IMG/VR virus record: IMGVR_UViG_3300024433_000070
Span: 1-21,610 of that record
Length of the DNA: 21,610 bases
Source: a virus
Direction: 5' to 3' (one strand)
Below are positions 2,086-20,883 of this stretch, piece by piece; positions within the stretch are counted from its first letter, which is position 1; the number at the start of each line of letters is the position of its first letter. A program made the translations under genes and the position numbers. The notes beneath the pieces were generated by a model. That model was not told the origin of the DNA and did no database searches. It saw nothing but the letters and a program-made list of their open reading frames with translations.

Positions 2086-2513
2086 AATTCTAGCTTTAAA
2101 TAAACACCAGGATTTTCTTTGTCCACAGAGTAATATTTGTTATCCATTTCTAATACATATGGGATTAAGTATTTCATGCTATCATCTGTAATGAAATCAT
2201 GAGCTACTAATAAATCTTGGATAATCTGTGTGGCATTATTAAAATCAAATTCAGCCTTTGTTTTGCGAACAAAATGAAATCCTAGTTTAATTGGGTAATT
2301 GTCAATAATAGGAAAATCTTTAAGAGATTCTCTAAATAGATTAGGCTTTGTTTTATACTCTTGAACTTGTTTATCTCTCACAGAGTATTTTAAAATACCT
2401 ATATCTCTTAAGTATTTTACTACAGTTTTAGAAGGAAATATCCCCCTTGAAGTCTTCACTTTGGAATTCTTCAAGGAGGGTACATTTCCAGGAATAAAAA
2501 ATAAAGTTACCAT
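2082..2513 (-). CDS. rusA: RusA-like Holliday junction resolvase, 143 aa
   Basis: Resembles RusA-type endodeoxyribonucleases, dimeric enzymes that cut four-way DNA junctions symmetrically. The N-terminus has the family's G-x-x-P-S-x-K-N pattern (GNVPSLKNSK, residues 9-18), where the basic residues contact DNA. The catalytic region shows FDFNNATQIIQDLLVAHDFITDD: D90, N92-N93, D100 and D110-D111, matching the RusA arrangement of essential aspartates around a helix. The length is close to the usual 120-140 residues. It starts 7 nt inside the end of the 325-aa gene and its stop overlaps the start of the 62-aa gene, so it is translated in one run with them. It probably resolves branched replication and recombination intermediates before packaging. 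Confidence 0.88.
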   Translation of the reverse strand: MVTLFFIPGNVPSLKNSKVKTSRGIFPSKTVVKYLRDIGILKYSVRDKQVQEYKTKPNLFRESLKDFPIIDNYPIKLGFHFVRKTKAEFDFNNATQIIQDLLVAHDFITDDSMKYLIPYVLEMDNKYYSVDKENPGVYLKLEL

Positions 2514-3484
2514 AAAACTTGAAAAGTCTCTTCAGCAGGTTCAGGCTCTGGAGTTATACCGCTAAGATAATCAGTAATAACTTTAATCATAATTTCCTTC
2601 TCTTCTTTAGATTTTTGTATTGCATTATTAAATACTGGTAAATCTACTTCGTAAAAGAGTTGAGCTTTAAGATCAGGTACAGTGACTATTTCAATGTTGT
2701 TCTCTTCAGCAAAAGGAAGAAGTATATTTCTATATACTTTTCTAAAGCTTTGAGATGGAAAATCTTTATAGTCAAAACCAGCCTGTACATAGAGTTTAAA
2801 CAAACCTTCTTTATTTTCTAAGTGGTGGTAATTACATTGATCACCTTTATTACGTTCAATACTATTATATAGTCCTGCTAGCCTAGGTAACTGCACAGCT
2901 TCAGTTTTAATAGCTAGTATTGCAAGAGGATTAAACATACCAGAATAAAAATATTGATTATTTTTATACATCTGAGCTACACCAAAAATACCACCTCCCC
3001 AATAAAAATTACCAGCTCTTGAAGCAATGTGTAAAATTCCTTGGCTTAGAAAACTAGTAATCTCTAAATCTGTTAAACTACGCCTAATCATAGGCCCTTT
3101 TCTTAATCTTAAATCATTACAAGGAGTGAGGTAGCTATTAAGAACTTCTTTTATTCTAGTTTTAACTATATCATCTTTAACAGAAATAGGAACATTAACA
3201 TCTAAAAAAGTATTAGATAGTTCTAATAAGTACTGATTACAAATTTGATTAGCACTTATTATAGATTGTAAAGATTCATTTTCAGGCCTATCCAAAAACT
3301 CTCGAATATATTTATAGCTGCTATGTAAACGATTTAAAACACTATATACACTAATTGAAGGTATGTAATGATTACCTGAATATACACAATACTCTTGATT
3401 ATATTTTATTTTAAAGGAATTTGTGTATCTATCTTCATGCCCAGAAGTATTTGTAGGGTTTCCTGTAAATAATAAATTTTGCAT
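2507..3484 (-). CDS. Unrecognised 325-aa protein next to the E1-like gene
   Basis: I do not recognise the family. The protein is mostly helical in the first half (residues 40-130) with a mixed, aromatic-rich middle (GNFYWGGGIFGVAQMY, about 160-175) and an acidic, proline-rich end (TPEPEPAEETFQVLW). No signal peptide, membrane segment or P-loop is visible. It lies 9 nt downstream of the ThiF/E1-like gene and overlaps the RusA gene by 7 nt, so it links the ubiquitin-like cassette to the recombination genes. PRTRC-type systems place a divergent E2-like protein (protein B) beside ThiF, but I could not find the expected N...C-G pattern here. It could be a partner or target of the cassette; that is a guess from position. 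Confidence 0.82.
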   Translation of the reverse strand: MQNLLFTGNPTNTSGHEDRYTNSFKIKYNQEYCVYSGNHYIPSISVYSVLNRLHSSYKYIREFLDRPENESLQSIISANQICNQYLLELSNTFLDVNVPISVKDDIVKTRIKEVLNSYLTPCNDLRLRKGPMIRRSLTDLEITSFLSQGILHIASRAGNFYWGGGIFGVAQMYKNNQYFYSGMFNPLAILAIKTEAVQLPRLAGLYNSIERNKGDQCNYHHLENKEGLFKLYVQAGFDYKDFPSQSFRKVYRNILLPFAEENNIEIVTVPDLKAQLFYEVDLPVFNNAIQKSKEEKEIMIKVITDYLSGITPEPEPAEETFQVLW

Positions 3485-3493
3485 AGGTACTAA

Positions 3494-4180
3494 TTAAAAG
3501 GTTACAATTTCAGTCATAGTAAAAATATCATTTTCAATGCAAAATGGTACATCTCTAACAGGTTCTTCAGTTACTAAATTAGCACAAAAATTAGTATATG
3601 CAGCTACCATTTTACTTGCTATCATAAAACTATTATGTGTAGTGCCTTTAAAACCACAAGGTAATACAGCAGCTTCTGAATCAGGAAATAAAGTTTCTTT
3701 GTACCTATCTACTTTATCTCTAGTAACTACATAAATGTAGAACTGCTCAGCAGTTAATCTACCATCAATTAATATAGGCTCAATTCCTTCAGAAGAATAC
3801 ATATTCATATCTCTAGTAAATAGGTCAAACATAACCTGTCTAGCTGCCATATTATCAAAACAGCTAAACATTACTTCACTAGTTGTAGTTTCAGGTGTTA
3901 CTAATGCATTATTAGGACTTAATCTATCATAACCACTAAACCTAAAAACAACATCTGCAACAGCAGTTATTTTACTTTTACCTATATGTTGAAAACTAAA
4001 TAGTTGATTTGATAAATTTATATTATCCACAGTATCATTATCATAGATACTAATTGATGCTGGTTCTATCCTAGATAGAAGAAAGGTTACCACAGAACCT
4101 ATACCCCCAGCCCCACCAACAGTAATGTTATGGGACTGGGCTTTAGGTAACCACACAGCTTCTTTAAATCTGTCTGTCAT
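3494..4180 (-). CDS. ThiF/MoeB-type E1-like adenylyltransferase, 228 aa
   Basis: E1-like enzymes activate the C-terminal glycine of a ubiquitin-like protein by adenylation. The Rossmann ATP site is clear: VGGAGGIGSV at 21-30, then YDNDTVDNINLSNQ at 46-59, IGKSK at 66-70 and CFDN at 107-110, the conserved switch Asp being D109. The family's Arg finger (NLxRQ) reads NLSNQ, so the arginine is replaced by Asn. No CxxC zinc sites are seen. C175 in the LPCGF loop is a candidate thioester cysteine, though its identity is inferred. At 228 residues it is a minimal E1 without a C-terminal ubiquitin-fold domain. Its ATG shares one base with the stop of the JAB gene (TAATG), so the two are co-translated. 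It is the fourth gene of the modifier-E2-JAB-E1 cassette and resembles ThiF proteins of PRTRC and Bil-type systems. Confidence 0.9.
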   Translation of the reverse strand: MTDRFKEAVWLPKAQSHNITVGGAGGIGSVVTFLLSRIEPASISIYDNDTVDNINLSNQLFSFQHIGKSKITAVADVVFRFSGYDRLSPNNALVTPETTTSEVMFSCFDNMAARQVMFDLFTRDMNMYSSEGIEPILIDGRLTAEQFYIYVVTRDKVDRYKETLFPDSEAAVLPCGFKGTTHNSFMIASKMVAAYTNFCANLVTEEPVRDVPFCIENDIFTMTEIVTF

Positions 4181-5337
4181 TAGTTGTTTGATTTGTTAAA
4201 AGAATTATTCCAAGAAGTAGTATCGTCATCATCTTCAAGTACATCTGTAAAATAATCAGCTATAACTGTATAAAGAAATTCAGCAGTACTACTTTTAATA
4301 TCATAAGCAACTTCTAAACAATACTCCATTACATCAGTAAGAAAATCAGCCATAGAATTGTTATTGATTAGCTGTCCTTTTTTAATAAAGAACACTTCTT
4401 TGTAACAATCTTCAATCTTATCTTCTATATGAAATGCATAAGCATCTTGATCCATACCACTAAACTTAGCATCAAGCTTAACTAAAGCTTGTTCAAAGCT
4501 ATCAGTACTTTTATATGCAGGATCTAAGAACATCAATTTACACAAAAAAAGTTCCATCTCTTTTTTGGTAAATGTGACTTTGTTATTAGTTACAAATGGC
4601 TTATCATCAAAAAGCTTAGGCAATGTAGATTGGCTTTGATTATAAGTTGGCTTATTATAAGTATCTATATCATAATCATCTCCATAGTTATAATTACCAT
4701 ACATACTTTTACTACTGCCAGTATTATAATTATAGTTACCAAAGTTATTGTAGGCTGTATGACTTTCTTTAATTGCTTTATCAGTCATAGACTCAAAGAA
4801 AGTATCTATCTCTTTAACAATGTCTAAGTCTAGTGTTATTACATCAAAAGTAGATACTTCTTCTTCTTGATTAGCAGTAAGAGGAATCCAGTTGCCATCA
4901 GAATCTTTGTACTCTTTAGCATATCTTTTTGTTTTATTATTAATAGGATAAGCAGCTTTGGCTACCATTTCACCTTTGTTATTAACAATTAAAGAAATAC
5001 AAAAATTAGAAAGCTTAGCATACTCATTTAAAGTAGAAGAATCTGTACCACTAAAGAATACTCCCATATTAACATGAGAGTGAATAATACCCATTTTACA
5101 ATCTTCTAGCTCTGGATTATTATCATAGGCATCAATGATTCTTTCATCTACTTCAAATTCAGTATAGGTAGGCTCACCTTTATGCATAGGCAAAATGTCT
5201 ATAGCTCTAATGCTAAAGGTTTCAGGATTAATAGGATGGCCTTCAGTTTTACAAAATACAATACCAGACCATTCTACTGTGTTAATTTTATGACACAAGA
5301 ACCAAATTTTTGATATTATCTCTGGAGAGATAAACAT
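4180..5337 (-). CDS. JAB/JAMM (Mov34/MPN) metallopeptidase, about 385 aa
   Basis: A JAMM peptidase that would process the modifier or remove it from targets. All zinc-site residues are present in order (numbering from the ATG at 5337): E22 in EWSG, then H86-S-H88, seven residues, S96 and D99, an exact E...HxH-x7-S-x2-D signature. A Tyr/Asn-rich low-complexity linker (about 207-254, with GNYNY repeated) separates the peptidase from a helical C-terminal region (about 265-375). Start choice: an earlier in-frame ATG at 5466 would add 43 Gln/Asn/Ser-rich residues but overlap the E2-like gene by 179 nt; the ATG at 5337 begins directly at the JAB fold (MFISPEII) with a 50-nt overlap and is preferred. 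Third gene of the cassette, directly before the E1. Confidence 0.9.
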   Translation of the reverse strand: MFISPEIISKIWFLCHKINTVEWSGIVFCKTEGHPINPETFSIRAIDILPMHKGEPTYTEFEVDERIIDAYDNNPELEDCKMGIIHSHVNMGVFFSGTDSSTLNEYAKLSNFCISLIVNNKGEMVAKAAYPINNKTKRYAKEYKDSDGNWIPLTANQEEEVSTFDVITLDLDIVKEIDTFFESMTDKAIKESHTAYNNFGNYNYNTGSSKSMYGNYNYGDDYDIDTYNKPTYNQSQSTLPKLFDDKPFVTNNKVTFTKKEMELFLCKLMFLDPAYKSTDSFEQALVKLDAKFSGMDQDAYAFHIEDKIEDCYKEVFFIKKGQLINNNSMADFLTDVMEYCLEVAYDIKSSTAEFLYTVIADYFTDVLEDDDDTTSWNNSFNKSNN

Positions 5338-6652
5338 CTTCGGTCTGTAAACTGGTGTAGTGGTTTGTAAATAATTGTTGTAAAGTTTCCCTTGTGAAGG
5401 ATAAGAGTTCTTCACTGCAGAATTCTGTTGTGACTTCTGCTTGTTGATCAATGCTTGTGGCTTCATAATTTATGGGGATGTTTCTAAAGGTTTTAAAATG
5501 TGCATTCTGTACAGCTATATCTAATTGCTGTTGATGTAAGGCATAATCGTACTGTTCAGTATTATTTGTTTGTACATTACCATCAGAATCAGTATAACCA
5601 TAATAAGTAGTATATGGAGCTAAAGCTCTAGCTAAATTAAGTGTATTTTGAATAGTCACTTCTACACTACTACCTGAATTATTGTAATTTAGTAAAGGAT
5701 TAAATAAATCAGGATTTTCTTTGTAGGCATTGCAAAATTTATTAAAATCACTTATAATAATACCAGGATCTATTGATTGCCTTGATACTACAGTTAAATT
5801 TCTGTTGTTAGTTGTTGATAAATGAATATAAGGAGTGCCTTCAATAGATTCCCATTCTACAAAATTGTTTATTTGATATAAAAACAAATCAAACCTATCC
5901 TCATTAAAGTCTTCCCTAAACTCAGAGATAAGTGCAGTTAAATCAGTACTGCCTGTGCAAAACGATGATACATCAAATAAACTTTCTAAACTTCTAAAGT
6001 TTAAGTGAGAATGTCTGTAACTATTTTTTACATCATTAAAAGACATTTTAGCTCTAAAGCCTTGAAATTCTTTTAATAAGCAAGATTCATTAAAGGTTAG
6101 TACACAATATAATTCTTCTATTTCTCTACTTTCTTGTTTAGTATTAGTAATAGTTATGTGTGGGTACCTAATAAGTAGATCTAAAAATCCATTTAAGTGA
6201 AGTTGTAAATCATAATTCTCACCATAAACTTCATCCAATACAGGTTTTAGTTTTGTTAAACCAAAATCTTTAAACTTATTAGCTAATGTAGTTTTATGAA
6301 AATCTTTGTATAAAGTTGCTAAGTTACTAAAATCAACTGCTTCATGAGATAATATAACATATTCATTTGTATGGTTTAGAGATACTGAGTAATCTTCATC
6401 GTAGTTATAAAGACTTTTTATATTATTATTTCGAGGATTTACAATTACATCATAACTATTAAATATCCAATCTATATTATCAGGATCTACAAAATAAAAA
6501 TGATTGTACATACCAATGCCAGAAGATATATAGTTTTCTCCTTGAAGTTGGTTAGCAGGCCTAACTATCACATTTGGATAGTTTTTAACTACCAGATCTC
6601 TAAATGAAGTTACATCACTAGCAGTTGATAATAATTTTTCTAATTCTGTCAT
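5288..6652 (-). CDS. Putative E2-like (UBC-fold) ubiquitin-conjugating protein, 454 aa
   Basis: Candidate E2 carrier that takes the modifier from E1 as a thioester. The central segment looks like an E2 core: strands YPHITITN (163-170), IEELYCVLTF (about 178-187) and FRAKMSF, then YRHSHL (212-217) followed by FCTGSTDL with C232. In classical E2s a Y/F-x-x-HPN motif is followed by the catalytic Cys and a Leu-Asp pair; HSH (214-216) and C232 fit that layout, with a longer spacing. Flanking N- and C-terminal regions are unrecognised. An upstream in-frame ATG at 6703 is rejected because the extra 17 codons run through a terminator hairpin; the ATG at 6652 (MTELEKLL) lies just after it. The E2 assignment is an inference from pattern and from being between a beta-grasp candidate and JAB/E1 genes. 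Confidence 0.72.
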   Translation of the reverse strand: MTELEKLLSTASDVTSFRDLVVKNYPNVIVRPANQLQGENYISSGIGMYNHFYFVDPDNIDWIFNSYDVIVNPRNNNIKSLYNYDEDYSVSLNHTNEYVILSHEAVDFSNLATLYKDFHKTTLANKFKDFGLTKLKPVLDEVYGENYDLQLHLNGFLDLLIRYPHITITNTKQESREIEELYCVLTFNESCLLKEFQGFRAKMSFNDVKNSYRHSHLNFRSLESLFDVSSFCTGSTDLTALISEFREDFNEDRFDLFLYQINNFVEWESIEGTPYIHLSTTNNRNLTVVSRQSIDPGIIISDFNKFCNAYKENPDLFNPLLNYNNSGSSVEVTIQNTLNLARALAPYTTYYGYTDSDGNVQTNNTEQYDYALHQQQLDIAVQNAHFKTFRNIPINYEATSIDQQAEVTTEFCSEELLSFTRETLQQLFTNHYTSLQTEDVYLSRDNIKNLVLVS

Positions 6653-6666
6653 ATTTTGGTTTTTAG

Positions 6667-6706
6667 AAAAAAATAAGAAAGGGTGAGGTAATAAATACCC
6701 CACCCT
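6667..6706 (-). terminator. Intrinsic terminator between modifier and E2-like genes
   Basis: The arms 6680-6690 and 6696-6706 form an 11-bp stem with loop TTTAT (minus strand), followed on the minus strand by TTTCTTATTTTTTTC. The only imperfect pair is A-C on the plus strand but G-U in the minus-strand RNA, so the structure is built for leftward transcription. It sits directly after the 132-aa gene and just before the E2-like start at 6652. Confidence 0.8.
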
Positions 6707-6733
6707 ATTCTTACATCATAGCAAAGCTACTAC

Positions 6734-7132
6734 TTAGGAAATTACTCCTTCAGTACGTAGTTGATCAAGATCATCTTCCTCATCTTCAGAAAGATTAGAG
6801 TTATTAGCTACATTACCAGCTAATACATCTTCAAAAAGGTTTTGAAGTTTAGTACGCAACTCTCTGATTTGAGAATCAGTGTAACGAGTACCATTATCAT
6901 TGGTGCCAGAAGCAATTTTCTTCATGCTCAAGATAACAGTAAAGTTACCTTCAGGAAGTTGAGCTTCTGGAGACTCCAAAGATACTCTGGTTTCACGAAC
7001 AATAGCTTTCATATTTCCAATGTCAGAAATATGAGAAGACAAATCACTTTGAAGTTCACTCCAAGTGGTTGCAGCAGATTCTACACTTTTAGCACGATCT
7101 GATTGAGAAGAAATAACACGAATTGTACGCAT
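6734..7132 (-). CDS. Putative ubiquitin-like (beta-grasp) modifier, 132 aa
   Basis: Candidate protein modifier. The first 76 residues, the length of ubiquitin, read like a beta-grasp: strand TIRVISS (3-9), helix TWSELQSDLSS (23-33), strand MKAIVRETRVSLE (41-53), then LPEGNFTVILSMKKIASG (59-76) ending in a glycine. A helical linker and acidic tail follow (EDEEDDLDQLRTEG-VIS), with a second candidate processing glycine at G129. Either could be exposed by the JAB peptidase; neither is proven. Seven of nine Arg codons are CGT, unlike the AGA-rich neighbours, which suggests high expression. The start ATG is 2 nt after the primase stop region's preceding gene boundary in transcription order, and a terminator follows the stop, so this gene ends a transcript for part of the polymerases. 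Fold and role are inferred from pattern and synteny with E2, JAB and E1 genes. Confidence 0.7.
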   Translation of the reverse strand: MRTIRVISSQSDRAKSVESAATTWSELQSDLSSHISDIGNMKAIVRETRVSLESPEAQLPEGNFTVILSMKKIASGTNDNGTRYTDSQIRELRTKLQNLFEDVLAGNVANNSNLSEDEEDDLDQLRTEGVIS

Positions 7133-7134
7133 AA

Positions 7135-8160
7135 TTAAAAAATTAAAGGATTAAAAATTAGGGATTTAATTAAAGATTTGGATACTTCCTTTCCATGGTT
7201 TTTTACTAGGTCAGAAAAGTCTTTTGATTTATATTCATCAGGTATCTCTATTTGATTTAACTGAAATTTAGAAGATAACTCACTGCCATACTTTCTACCC
7301 CAGTTAACTTCTTTATTGAAGTCATTATCATAGAGTAAATACACTTTATCAAACCTTTTCTTCAGCTGATTAACAATATGAGGCTTAGGATCAGTTGTTT
7401 CAGCTTGAAGAGATACAGAAGGAACACCAGTTAATTCTGTAAGTGACATAACATCTTTTAAAGATTTAGTGATTATGAGCTTTTCACCTCTCTTTGGCAA
7501 TTGTGTCCATCCTTGCCAAACAGATTTATCAACATTTGATATAAATCTTAATTGTTTGTTATAGGGTTGATATATTTTATATGTATAGATTCTATCCTTG
7601 CTCTCTAGATAAGCATATGCAGGGTTCTTTGAGTTATCTACAGGTATTATTAAATCATTTAAGAAAATGAATTTACAACTAAAAACATTATACCTATTTA
7701 ATGTAGATTTACTTATCCCAAATTGTCCCCAGAAATGTATATCTCTTGGGGTGAACTCTTGCATTTTTATGCCTATGTGTACTCTAGATTTATCTTTGTA
7801 GTCAATGTCTTTGGGGATTTTAATTTTCTTTTTTCTGCCCACTATATCACTGTCAATAAGTCCAAAGTCATTAGCTACTTTTCGCAAAGCACCATAGTAA
7901 TCTAGTCCAAATAACCTAGAAACAAATACAAAACAATCTCCTTTTTCTTTTGTAGCAAAATCTCTGAATAGAAGTTTATCCAAGGTGGATGCATAAAACA
8001 CACTAAAAGAAGCAATATCATCCTCTCTAAGAGGGCTGCATATAGCAGTATTGAGTTGCAAATTTGGTATGTAGAATGCAAAGATTTGATACTCTGAAAC
8101 TCTATCTAATATGAGTTCAGATGATAATGTATTATAGTCTAAAGAATTAAGATTAATCAT
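7135..8160 (-). CDS. DnaG-like primase with Toprim domain, 341 aa
   Basis: Likely makes RNA primers for phage DNA replication. The N-terminal part (residues 40-100) resembles the CHC2-like region of DnaG primases (CSPLREDDIASFSVFY ... GDCFVFVSRLFGLDYYGAL) but lacks the zinc cysteines and histidine. The C-terminal half carries a Toprim fold: LIITKSLKD at 228-236, then VYLLYDNDFNKE with the D278-x-D280 metal pair. Where canonical Toprim has a catalytic Glu (EGxxD), this protein has Lys232, a pattern I associate with a phage primase subfamily (TKSxKD). At 341 residues it is shorter than bacterial DnaG and has no visible helicase-binding domain. It is preceded by a hairpin and a possible single-strand-binding protein and followed by the modifier gene. 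Confidence 0.83.
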   Translation of the reverse strand: MINLNSLDYNTLSSELILDRVSEYQIFAFYIPNLQLNTAICSPLREDDIASFSVFYASTLDKLLFRDFATKEKGDCFVFVSRLFGLDYYGALRKVANDFGLIDSDIVGRKKKIKIPKDIDYKDKSRVHIGIKMQEFTPRDIHFWGQFGISKSTLNRYNVFSCKFIFLNDLIIPVDNSKNPAYAYLESKDRIYTYKIYQPYNKQLRFISNVDKSVWQGWTQLPKRGEKLIITKSLKDVMSLTELTGVPSVSLQAETTDPKPHIVNQLKKRFDKVYLLYDNDFNKEVNWGRKYGSELSSKFQLNQIEIPDEYKSKDFSDLVKNHGKEVSKSLIKSLIFNPLIF

Positions 8161-20431: not shown

Positions 20432-20442
20432 ACCTGTATTAG

Positions 20443-20516
20443 TAGTTCCATTAGGAGTCGAACCTAAGACCTATTGCTTAGAAGGCAATTGCTCTATCCA
20501 GCTGAGCTATGGAACC
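20443..20516 (-). tRNA. tRNA-Arg (anticodon UCU)
   Basis: A complete 74-nt cloverleaf on the minus strand: acceptor GGTTCCA paired with TGGAACT (first pair G-U), D arm TAGCTCAGCTGGATAGAGCA, anticodon stem ATTGC/GCAAT with loop CTTCTAA giving anticodon TCT, and T arm TTAGG-TTCGACT-CCTAA. Discriminator A; CCA is not encoded. It reads AGA, the main Arg codon in most genes of this window, so it would support phage translation. Confidence 0.95.
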
Positions 20517-20523
20517 ATATAAA

Positions 20524-20883
20524 TTATTTAAGTTCGCATTTATGGTATTTAGGATAAAACAGATTAGATATCTTTTGCCAGTACTTTAATGTAGATTCTT
20601 TAAGATGACCATTAGGGCCACCATTCCACTTTCTAGCAATAATCTCTGGGTTGGTATAATTCTTGATTTCTACCCATTTCTTAAATGCTTCAACAGATTT
20701 GTGTTTAGAGTACCTATCTTCTAAAGTAAACTCAATACCTATTCTGTTGAACTCTGCGACCATAATAGGTCTAATTTGCAGTACACCTGCGGCTTGCTCT
20801 TTAGCATTAAAACTAAGAGGATCTCCACCACTCTCTACAAAGATTATGGCAGAGATTAATTTTGCTAATACAAAAGCTTTCAT
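20524..20883 (-). CDS. Lytic transglycosylase/lysozyme-like protein, 119 aa
   Basis: Resembles small transglycosylase-like proteins of Bacteroidota phages that cut peptidoglycan. The helix LISAIIFVESGGDPLSFN contains the probable catalytic Glu (E17 of VESGG), followed by EQAAGVLQIRPIMVAEFNRI, the G-x-LQI motif of the SLT/goose-lysozyme fold, and IARKWNGGPNGHLKESTLKYWQKI near the end. The hydrophobic start looks more like the first catalytic helix than a cleaved signal peptide. It lies directly before the tRNA, at the head of the leftward unit. It could act in lysis or in DNA entry through the wall. Confidence 0.82.
   Translation of the reverse strand: MKAFVLAKLISAIIFVESGGDPLSFNAKEQAAGVLQIRPIMVAEFNRIGIEFTLEDRYSKHKSVEAFKKWVEIKNYTNPEIIARKWNGGPNGHLKESTLKYWQKISNLFYPKYHKCELK

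Follow-up and report, generated by a model that had tools for sequence, protein, structure and literature searches.

A putative ubiquitin-like conjugation cassette next to the primase gene of crAss-like phages

Does a bacterial virus own a complete pathway for attaching a ubiquitin-like (Ubl) protein to other proteins and for removing it again? The question is raised by a stretch of 21,610 nucleotides, hereafter the window, which comprises positions 1 to 21,610 of the IMG/VR virus record IMGVR_UViG_3300024433_000070. Essentially all credible genes of this 21.6 kb record lie on the minus strand, and the window represents part of the genome of a crAss-like (Crassvirales-type) phage. At 3494–7132, four consecutive co-oriented genes encode a modifier, an E2-like protein, a JAMM protein and an E1-like enzyme; an initial annotation of the window had given the coordinates correctly. 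It had also proposed that the phage owns a modifier–E2–JAMM–E1 cassette within its replication/recombination module. Our analysis upholds that description with two corrections: the E2-like and JAMM frames overlap, which leaves the JAMM start codon uncertain, and a fifth gene (X) lies between the E1 and RusA genes, so that the order of transcription is primase, modifier, E2-like, JAMM, E1, X, RusA-like resolvase and PD-(D/E)XK exonuclease. Judged from the sequences and from predicted structures, the cassette probably constitutes a phage-owned pathway of Ubl conjugation and deconjugation, and vertical inheritance together with the phage replication module is the best reading of its history. The system is of a known kind, with an unexpected owner: a phage rather than a host or a plasmid.

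We assembled 98 near-non-redundant loci by E1 homology, among which some near-duplicates remain. The order modifier, E2-like, JAMM, E1 recurs in 92 of them, nearly always directly after the primase gene, which in the window encodes a DnaG-type enzyme (7135–8160; PHROG 12622 at 6e-65) and forms the left border of the slot; this gene and all features of the cassette described below are on the minus strand. In a 93rd ordered locus (L045), the hidden Markov model overlooked a modifier that is present, with 81 aa ending in RTKAGN. The remaining five loci are cut by contig ends. Co-conservation of the four genes in related phages, named beforehand in the initial annotation as a test of its proposal, is thus found in 93 of the 98 loci and interrupted elsewhere only by the limits of the contigs. 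The four-gene arrangement is real and lies beyond chance.

The E1-like adenylyltransferase (228 aa; 3494–4180) contains a single adenylation domain of the ThiF/UBA5 kind. Its initial assignment as a ThiF-type E1 is borne out by Pfam ThiF (1.8e-13), PHROG 15670 (7e-49) and NCBIfam ThiF models, and its closest relative in the PDB is UBA5 (5.5e-13). The residues of the ATP site are retained in 96–98 of 98 members, with G23, G25, D49, N55, Q59, K70, D109, D139 and R141 in all 98. The candidate catalytic cysteine, Cys175 (3656–3658), lies in a C-x-x-K-x-T motif and is found in all 95 aligned members that have a residue at this position, the other three having a gap. The protein is a minimal enzyme of ThiF/UBA5 size.

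The JAMM/JAB isopeptidase-like protein (428 aa; 4180–5466) gives a weak match to Prok-JAB (0.0026, below the curated cut-off), yet it carries every metal ligand, as first described: the catalytic Glu65 (5272–5274) and, within the HSH-x7-SxxD motif (5041–5082), H129, H131, S139 and D142. Each of these five residues is kept in 94–95 of 95 aligned members. The start codon is uncertain because the frame overlaps that of the E2-like protein by 179 nt (5288–5466) in a different reading frame; overlaps of comparable length are seen in several relatives, annotated RefSeq records among them. In three loci, group I introns recognized by Rfam split the JAMM gene in or beside the codons of the HxH metal motif (L050, 5684–6137; L062, 5139–5351; L084, 4543–4802), and L011 and L108 show a split of this gene at the identical place without an Rfam match.

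The modifier precursor (132 aa; 6734–7132) is composed of a predicted beta-grasp domain (residues 1–76) and a 56-aa C-terminal tail. Its AlphaFold2 (AF2) model, with a mean predicted local distance difference test score (pLDDT) of 84.9, places strands at residues 2–8 and 15–19, a helix at 24–31 and further strands at 41–45 and 64–70, which is the beta-grasp order and agrees with the fold initially suspected. The PDB matches of the model are mostly ubiquitin folds (UBX, ISG15, FAT10 and Ubb, the ubiquitin-like protein of B. fragilis), with probabilities of ~1.0 and E-values of only 3e-3 to 2e-2, and Ubb aligns with it at 1.8 Å across 76 columns. The last residues of the domain are K-x-K-[S/A]-G or close to this, in the general form [S/A/G]-G among the family members examined; in the window, it is closed by Ser-Gly (residues 75–76; 6905–6910), the predicted mature C-terminus. 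This Gly is never the last residue in any member, at least one residue always following it. The shortest tails extend 1–5 residues past it (KVKSGK, KMKAGA, KVKSGTSI, KVKSGNEKKH), and the others range from 24 to 252. An obligatory tail on the modifier, together with an ever-present JAMM peptidase, is what the processing of a pro-modifier predicts. In one locus (L098, 2728–3931), the modifier is a 92-aa frame ending in KIKSGKF, and the usual C-terminal extension forms a separate open frame, with a 532-nt insertion between the two.

The E2-like protein (454 aa from the ATG; 5288–6652, with an open frame extending to 6703) has a predicted ubiquitin-conjugating (UBC)-like core at about residues 111–290 and variable N- and C-terminal regions. 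Its AF2 model (pLDDT 89.5) consists of a long helix, a four-strand meander, a Cys loop and two helices, in the order of the UBC fold. The candidate catalytic Cys232 (5957–5959), in a C-x-G motif 16 residues past an HSH, is invariant together with Gly234 in all 94 members having the residue; the HSH is near-invariant, and an ES..G.P stretch occurs in 95 of 95. Neither this protein nor the modifier was assigned to a family by Pfam, NCBIfam or PADLOC, and profile searches of solved structures with the two alignments returned chance matches only. When compared with viral models in Foldseek, the E2-like model matched its own family and unnamed proteins only. Since the modifier matches PHROG 15560 and the E2-like protein PHROG 15310, both of unknown function, they are real phage families. 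Both protein families are new.

Relative to loci L001, L004 and L005, the modifier, JAMM and E1 genes have dN/dS ratios of 0.11–0.36, indicating purifying selection. In the E2-like protein, pN/pS is 0.23–0.47 for the core (residues 147–274) and 0.68–0.96 for residues 1–110. Gene X (325 aa; 2507–3484), which is fast-evolving and conserved in position, often exceeds a pN/pS of 0.6, the closest pair having very few substitutions. Its family follows E1 in 34 of 87 loci; a cluster of 30 is related to it by profile (probability 95%, E 2e-8), and 11 others are linked more weakly. Because X or a profile-related cluster lies directly 3' of E1 in most loci, we regard X as the fifth member of the cassette. 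The choice of targets may lie with the variable flanks of the E2-like protein and with X. Pairwise distances of the cassette genes correlate with one another at 0.44–0.59, equally with those of the primase and the exonuclease (0.44–0.64) and little with those of Sak4, a pattern consistent with a cassette that is handed down along with the replication module rather than often exchanged.

The genes for primase and uracil-DNA glycosylase flank the Ubl cassette and X in phiCrAss001, cr85_1 and Kolpuevirus. Cellulophaga phage phi14:2 and cr108_1 (both Steigviridae) have no E1 in their whole records; in both, the primase is followed by a gamma-glutamyl cyclotransferase, an ATP-grasp protein, a COOH-NH2 ligase, a glutamine amidotransferase and an amidoligase, and in phi14:2 then by uracil-DNA glycosylase. 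The COOH-NH2 ligase and GATase_6, present in both of these phages, occur in none of the 16 cassette-bearing records tested. Such amidoligase/ATP-grasp/glutamine amidotransferase cassettes (COOH-NH2_lig, Amidoligase_2) resemble the Ubl cassette in their place at the primase slot of phi14:2 and cr108_1 and in their predicted formation of a peptide-type bond, but their enzymes are unrelated to it and are spread over many unrelated phages (315 records). The swap of one peptide-bond-forming cassette for another at one site suggests that the two have a role in common. Suoliviridae cr60_1 and Intestiviridae crAss002 contain neither cassette, and the function is thus dispensable for some crAss-like phages. 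In our locus set, amidoligase cassettes at the primase slot of crAss-like phages lacking the Ubl cassette are located at L134 8016–13660 and L135 8241–13827.

E1 relatives occur in 79 phage records, namely those of Bacteroides crAss-like phages (crAss001, DAC15, DAC17), Flavobacterium Fipvunavirus, uncultured Steigviridae and a few others, and are encoded in 396 stretches of IMG/VR. Kehishuvirus, Kolpuevirus and cr85_1 are further named carriers of the cassette, and phiCrAss001 is a gut phage grown in the laboratory; taken together, the carriers are a large group whose hosts are bacteria of the Bacteroides type. Since only six contigs of metagenome-assembled genomes, mostly short, contain E1 relatives among the 84,980 bacterial and archaeal genomes searched, this E1 belongs to a phage lineage. 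A bacterial chromosomal source was considered and rejected, no bacterial origin having been found in that search. Current public annotations of the cassette genes read 'thiamine biosynthesis protein', 'metalloprotease domain' and 'hypothetical protein', with 'E1 enzyme family protein' in one record. We rejected a role in thiamine biosynthesis because the ThiF protein never occurs without a tailed modifier and partners of the E2-like and JAMM kinds. Among the open-access papers searched on crAss-like phages or Crassvirales together with ubiquitin, ThiF or E1 enzymes, none describes a Ubl cassette in such phages; most subscription journals lie outside this scope, and prior notice there is possible. 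Elsewhere in the window, a tRNA-Arg gene (anticodon TCT; minus strand, 20442–20516) adjoins a short lysozyme-like open frame (20524–20883).

How does the cassette relate to known Ubl systems? The PRTRC operons of plasmids (Pfam Prok_Ub, Prok-E2_D, Prok-JAB, ThiF) share the relative order Ubl, E2, JAB, E1 and are likewise borne by mobile elements. The profile comparisons with PRTRC proposed in the initial annotation linked the E1 to PRTRC ThiF (probability 98.5%, E 2.4e-15, 180 columns) and the JAMM protein to PRTRC protein A (probability 87%, E 4e-6), whereas the modifier had no significant match to PRTRC C. The JAB proteins also have an F-F-S-x-T-D stretch in common, and C-x-G surrounds the E2 cysteine in both. 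However, the phage JAB protein lacks the DUF2016 N-domain, gene X is additional, and Prok_Ub and Prok-E2_D find zero matches among the modifier and E2 members (67 and 69), although the PRTRC proteins themselves match. Among NCBIfam models, the E1 scores higher with general ThiF models than with PRTRC_ThiF. Plasmid PRTRC operons read ParB, E, C, F, B, A, ThiF; ParB and proteins E and F are absent from the annotated relatives of the cassette, where the primase and gene X are found instead. PRTRC appears to correspond to operon type 6d of Iyer et al. 2006, in which the E2 is without an upstream His and has one His downstream (PMC1779556). The phage E2-like protein is the reverse, with the upstream HSH present and the downstream His absent.

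The likeness to bacterial Bil operons (BilABCD) that had first been noted holds for the gene order Ubl, E2, JAMM, E1, and in Bil a pro-modifier is cut by a JAMM enzyme, as is predicted here, but kinship is not borne out. Bil has two Ubl domains in BilA, an E1 composed of IAD, AAD and Cys domains and an E2 with a CEHH motif (PMC11354881), whereas the phage modifier has one beta-grasp domain, the 228-aa E1 a single ThiF domain, and the E2-like protein C-x-G and ES..G.P after its cysteine, with no CEHH and no conserved His. Bil is carried by the host and the present cassette by a phage, and neither the E1 nor the JAMM protein has a close match among Bil models. We therefore rejected the cassette as a Bil operon on its modifier, E1 and E2 features, despite the equal gene order. 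As for the eukaryotic UFM1 system, the likeness of the phage E1 to UBA5 is limited to the adenylation domain. UFM1 matures to a single terminal Gly by losing a short tail, as predicted for the phage modifier, but its processing is carried out by cysteine proteases and not by a JAMM enzyme. A different cassette was observed in Xanthomonas phage PhiXhv-15 (PV764602.1; L131 2709–6588), between DNA ligase and topoisomerase genes. Its genes encode a small protein whose last residues are exactly SGG, a protein of 893 aa that carries HPH...GSLCLGS and is Cys-rich at its C-terminus, and an E1 of the ThiF type. The surrounding 49 kb yielded no JAMM motif, which fits a modifier without need of trimming.

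We infer the following steps for the phage cassette. The JAMM protein would trim the modifier precursor after the conserved Gly. The E1 would adenylate this Gly and then take the modifier on Cys175. Next, Cys232 of the E2-like protein would receive the modifier. The variable flanks of this protein, perhaps together with protein X, would pick the targets, and the JAMM protein could remove the tag. Several points weigh against this scheme. The E2-like protein is its weakest part: no match of the full-length model in the PDB was significant in Foldseek, the best UBC-like one being a UEV domain at rank 28 (E 1.3), and its profile match to PRTRC B is likewise not significant (E 0.058). The UBC fold initially expected for the 454-aa protein is thus matched in topology and in the invariant cysteine and not by a significant PDB hit, for which reason the E2 call rests on predicted topology, the invariant cysteine and context. 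Furthermore, no E3 was identified for the cassette, the co-occurrence figures hold for loci selected by their E1 (where it is present, the other three genes adjoin it), and the evidence for the slot swap consists of two cases.

Might the cassette instead act against the host? The phage modifier and enzymes could hinder a Ubl-based host defence, such as Bil or type II CBASS, either competing for host conjugates or stripping them. Hosts do carry Ubl-based defences (PMC10097602, PMC11354881), and the rapid evolution of the E2-like flanks and gene X is arms-race-like. However, the cassette is complete and reversible, lies among replication genes and is co-inherited with the primase and the exonuclease; its E1 and JAMM proteins are not close to Bil models, and in two relatives an unrelated peptide-ligation cassette fills the slot. 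We therefore consider counter-defence unlikely. Still less likely, in our judgement, is a purely processing role, in which the JAMM protein would free a protein fused as the C-terminal extension of the Ubl, and the ThiF/E2-like pair would conjugate nothing or perform a ThiS/ThiF-like sulfur transfer. Short modifiers stop 1–5 residues past the Gly, leaving no protein to release, although an extension of 54–252 residues is present on most modifiers. Similarly, the minimal ThiF size of the E1 and its NCBIfam ThiF matches would suit this reading, but the second protein with an invariant cysteine is always present, and the neighbourhoods read showed neither a rhodanese nor a sulfurtransferase gene. 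A vestigial or scaffolding cassette, its domains kept as a complex without catalysis, would accommodate the unconfirmed E2 fold but is very improbable, given that very divergent phages keep the catalytic residues of the three enzymes nearly unchanged and that the modifier, JAMM and E1 are under purifying selection.

If the cassette does conjugate its modifier, proteins at the phage replication/recombination machinery are the likeliest targets, since the cassette shares the inheritance of that module and is replaced at one site by another peptide-ligation cassette; we would rate this assignment at slightly less than an even chance. Somewhat more tentatively, Crassvirales-type phages may run a self-contained, reversible Ubl tagging of their own replication machinery, a core function interchangeable with peptide tagging by amidoligases, and this would be the first virus-owned bacterial Ubl pathway with a virus-encoded modifier, E1, E2 and deconjugase.

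What is known of Ubl conjugation in bacteria comes mainly from anti-phage defences and from plasmid operons of unknown role. A complete and conserved pathway in cultured gut phages such as phiCrAss001 and DAC15, if true, would mean that bacterial viruses use Ubl conjugation too, and the proposal is directly testable in these phages. It also supplies working hypotheses for genes of widespread phages that are at present labelled as thiamine biosynthesis, metalloprotease or hypothetical proteins.

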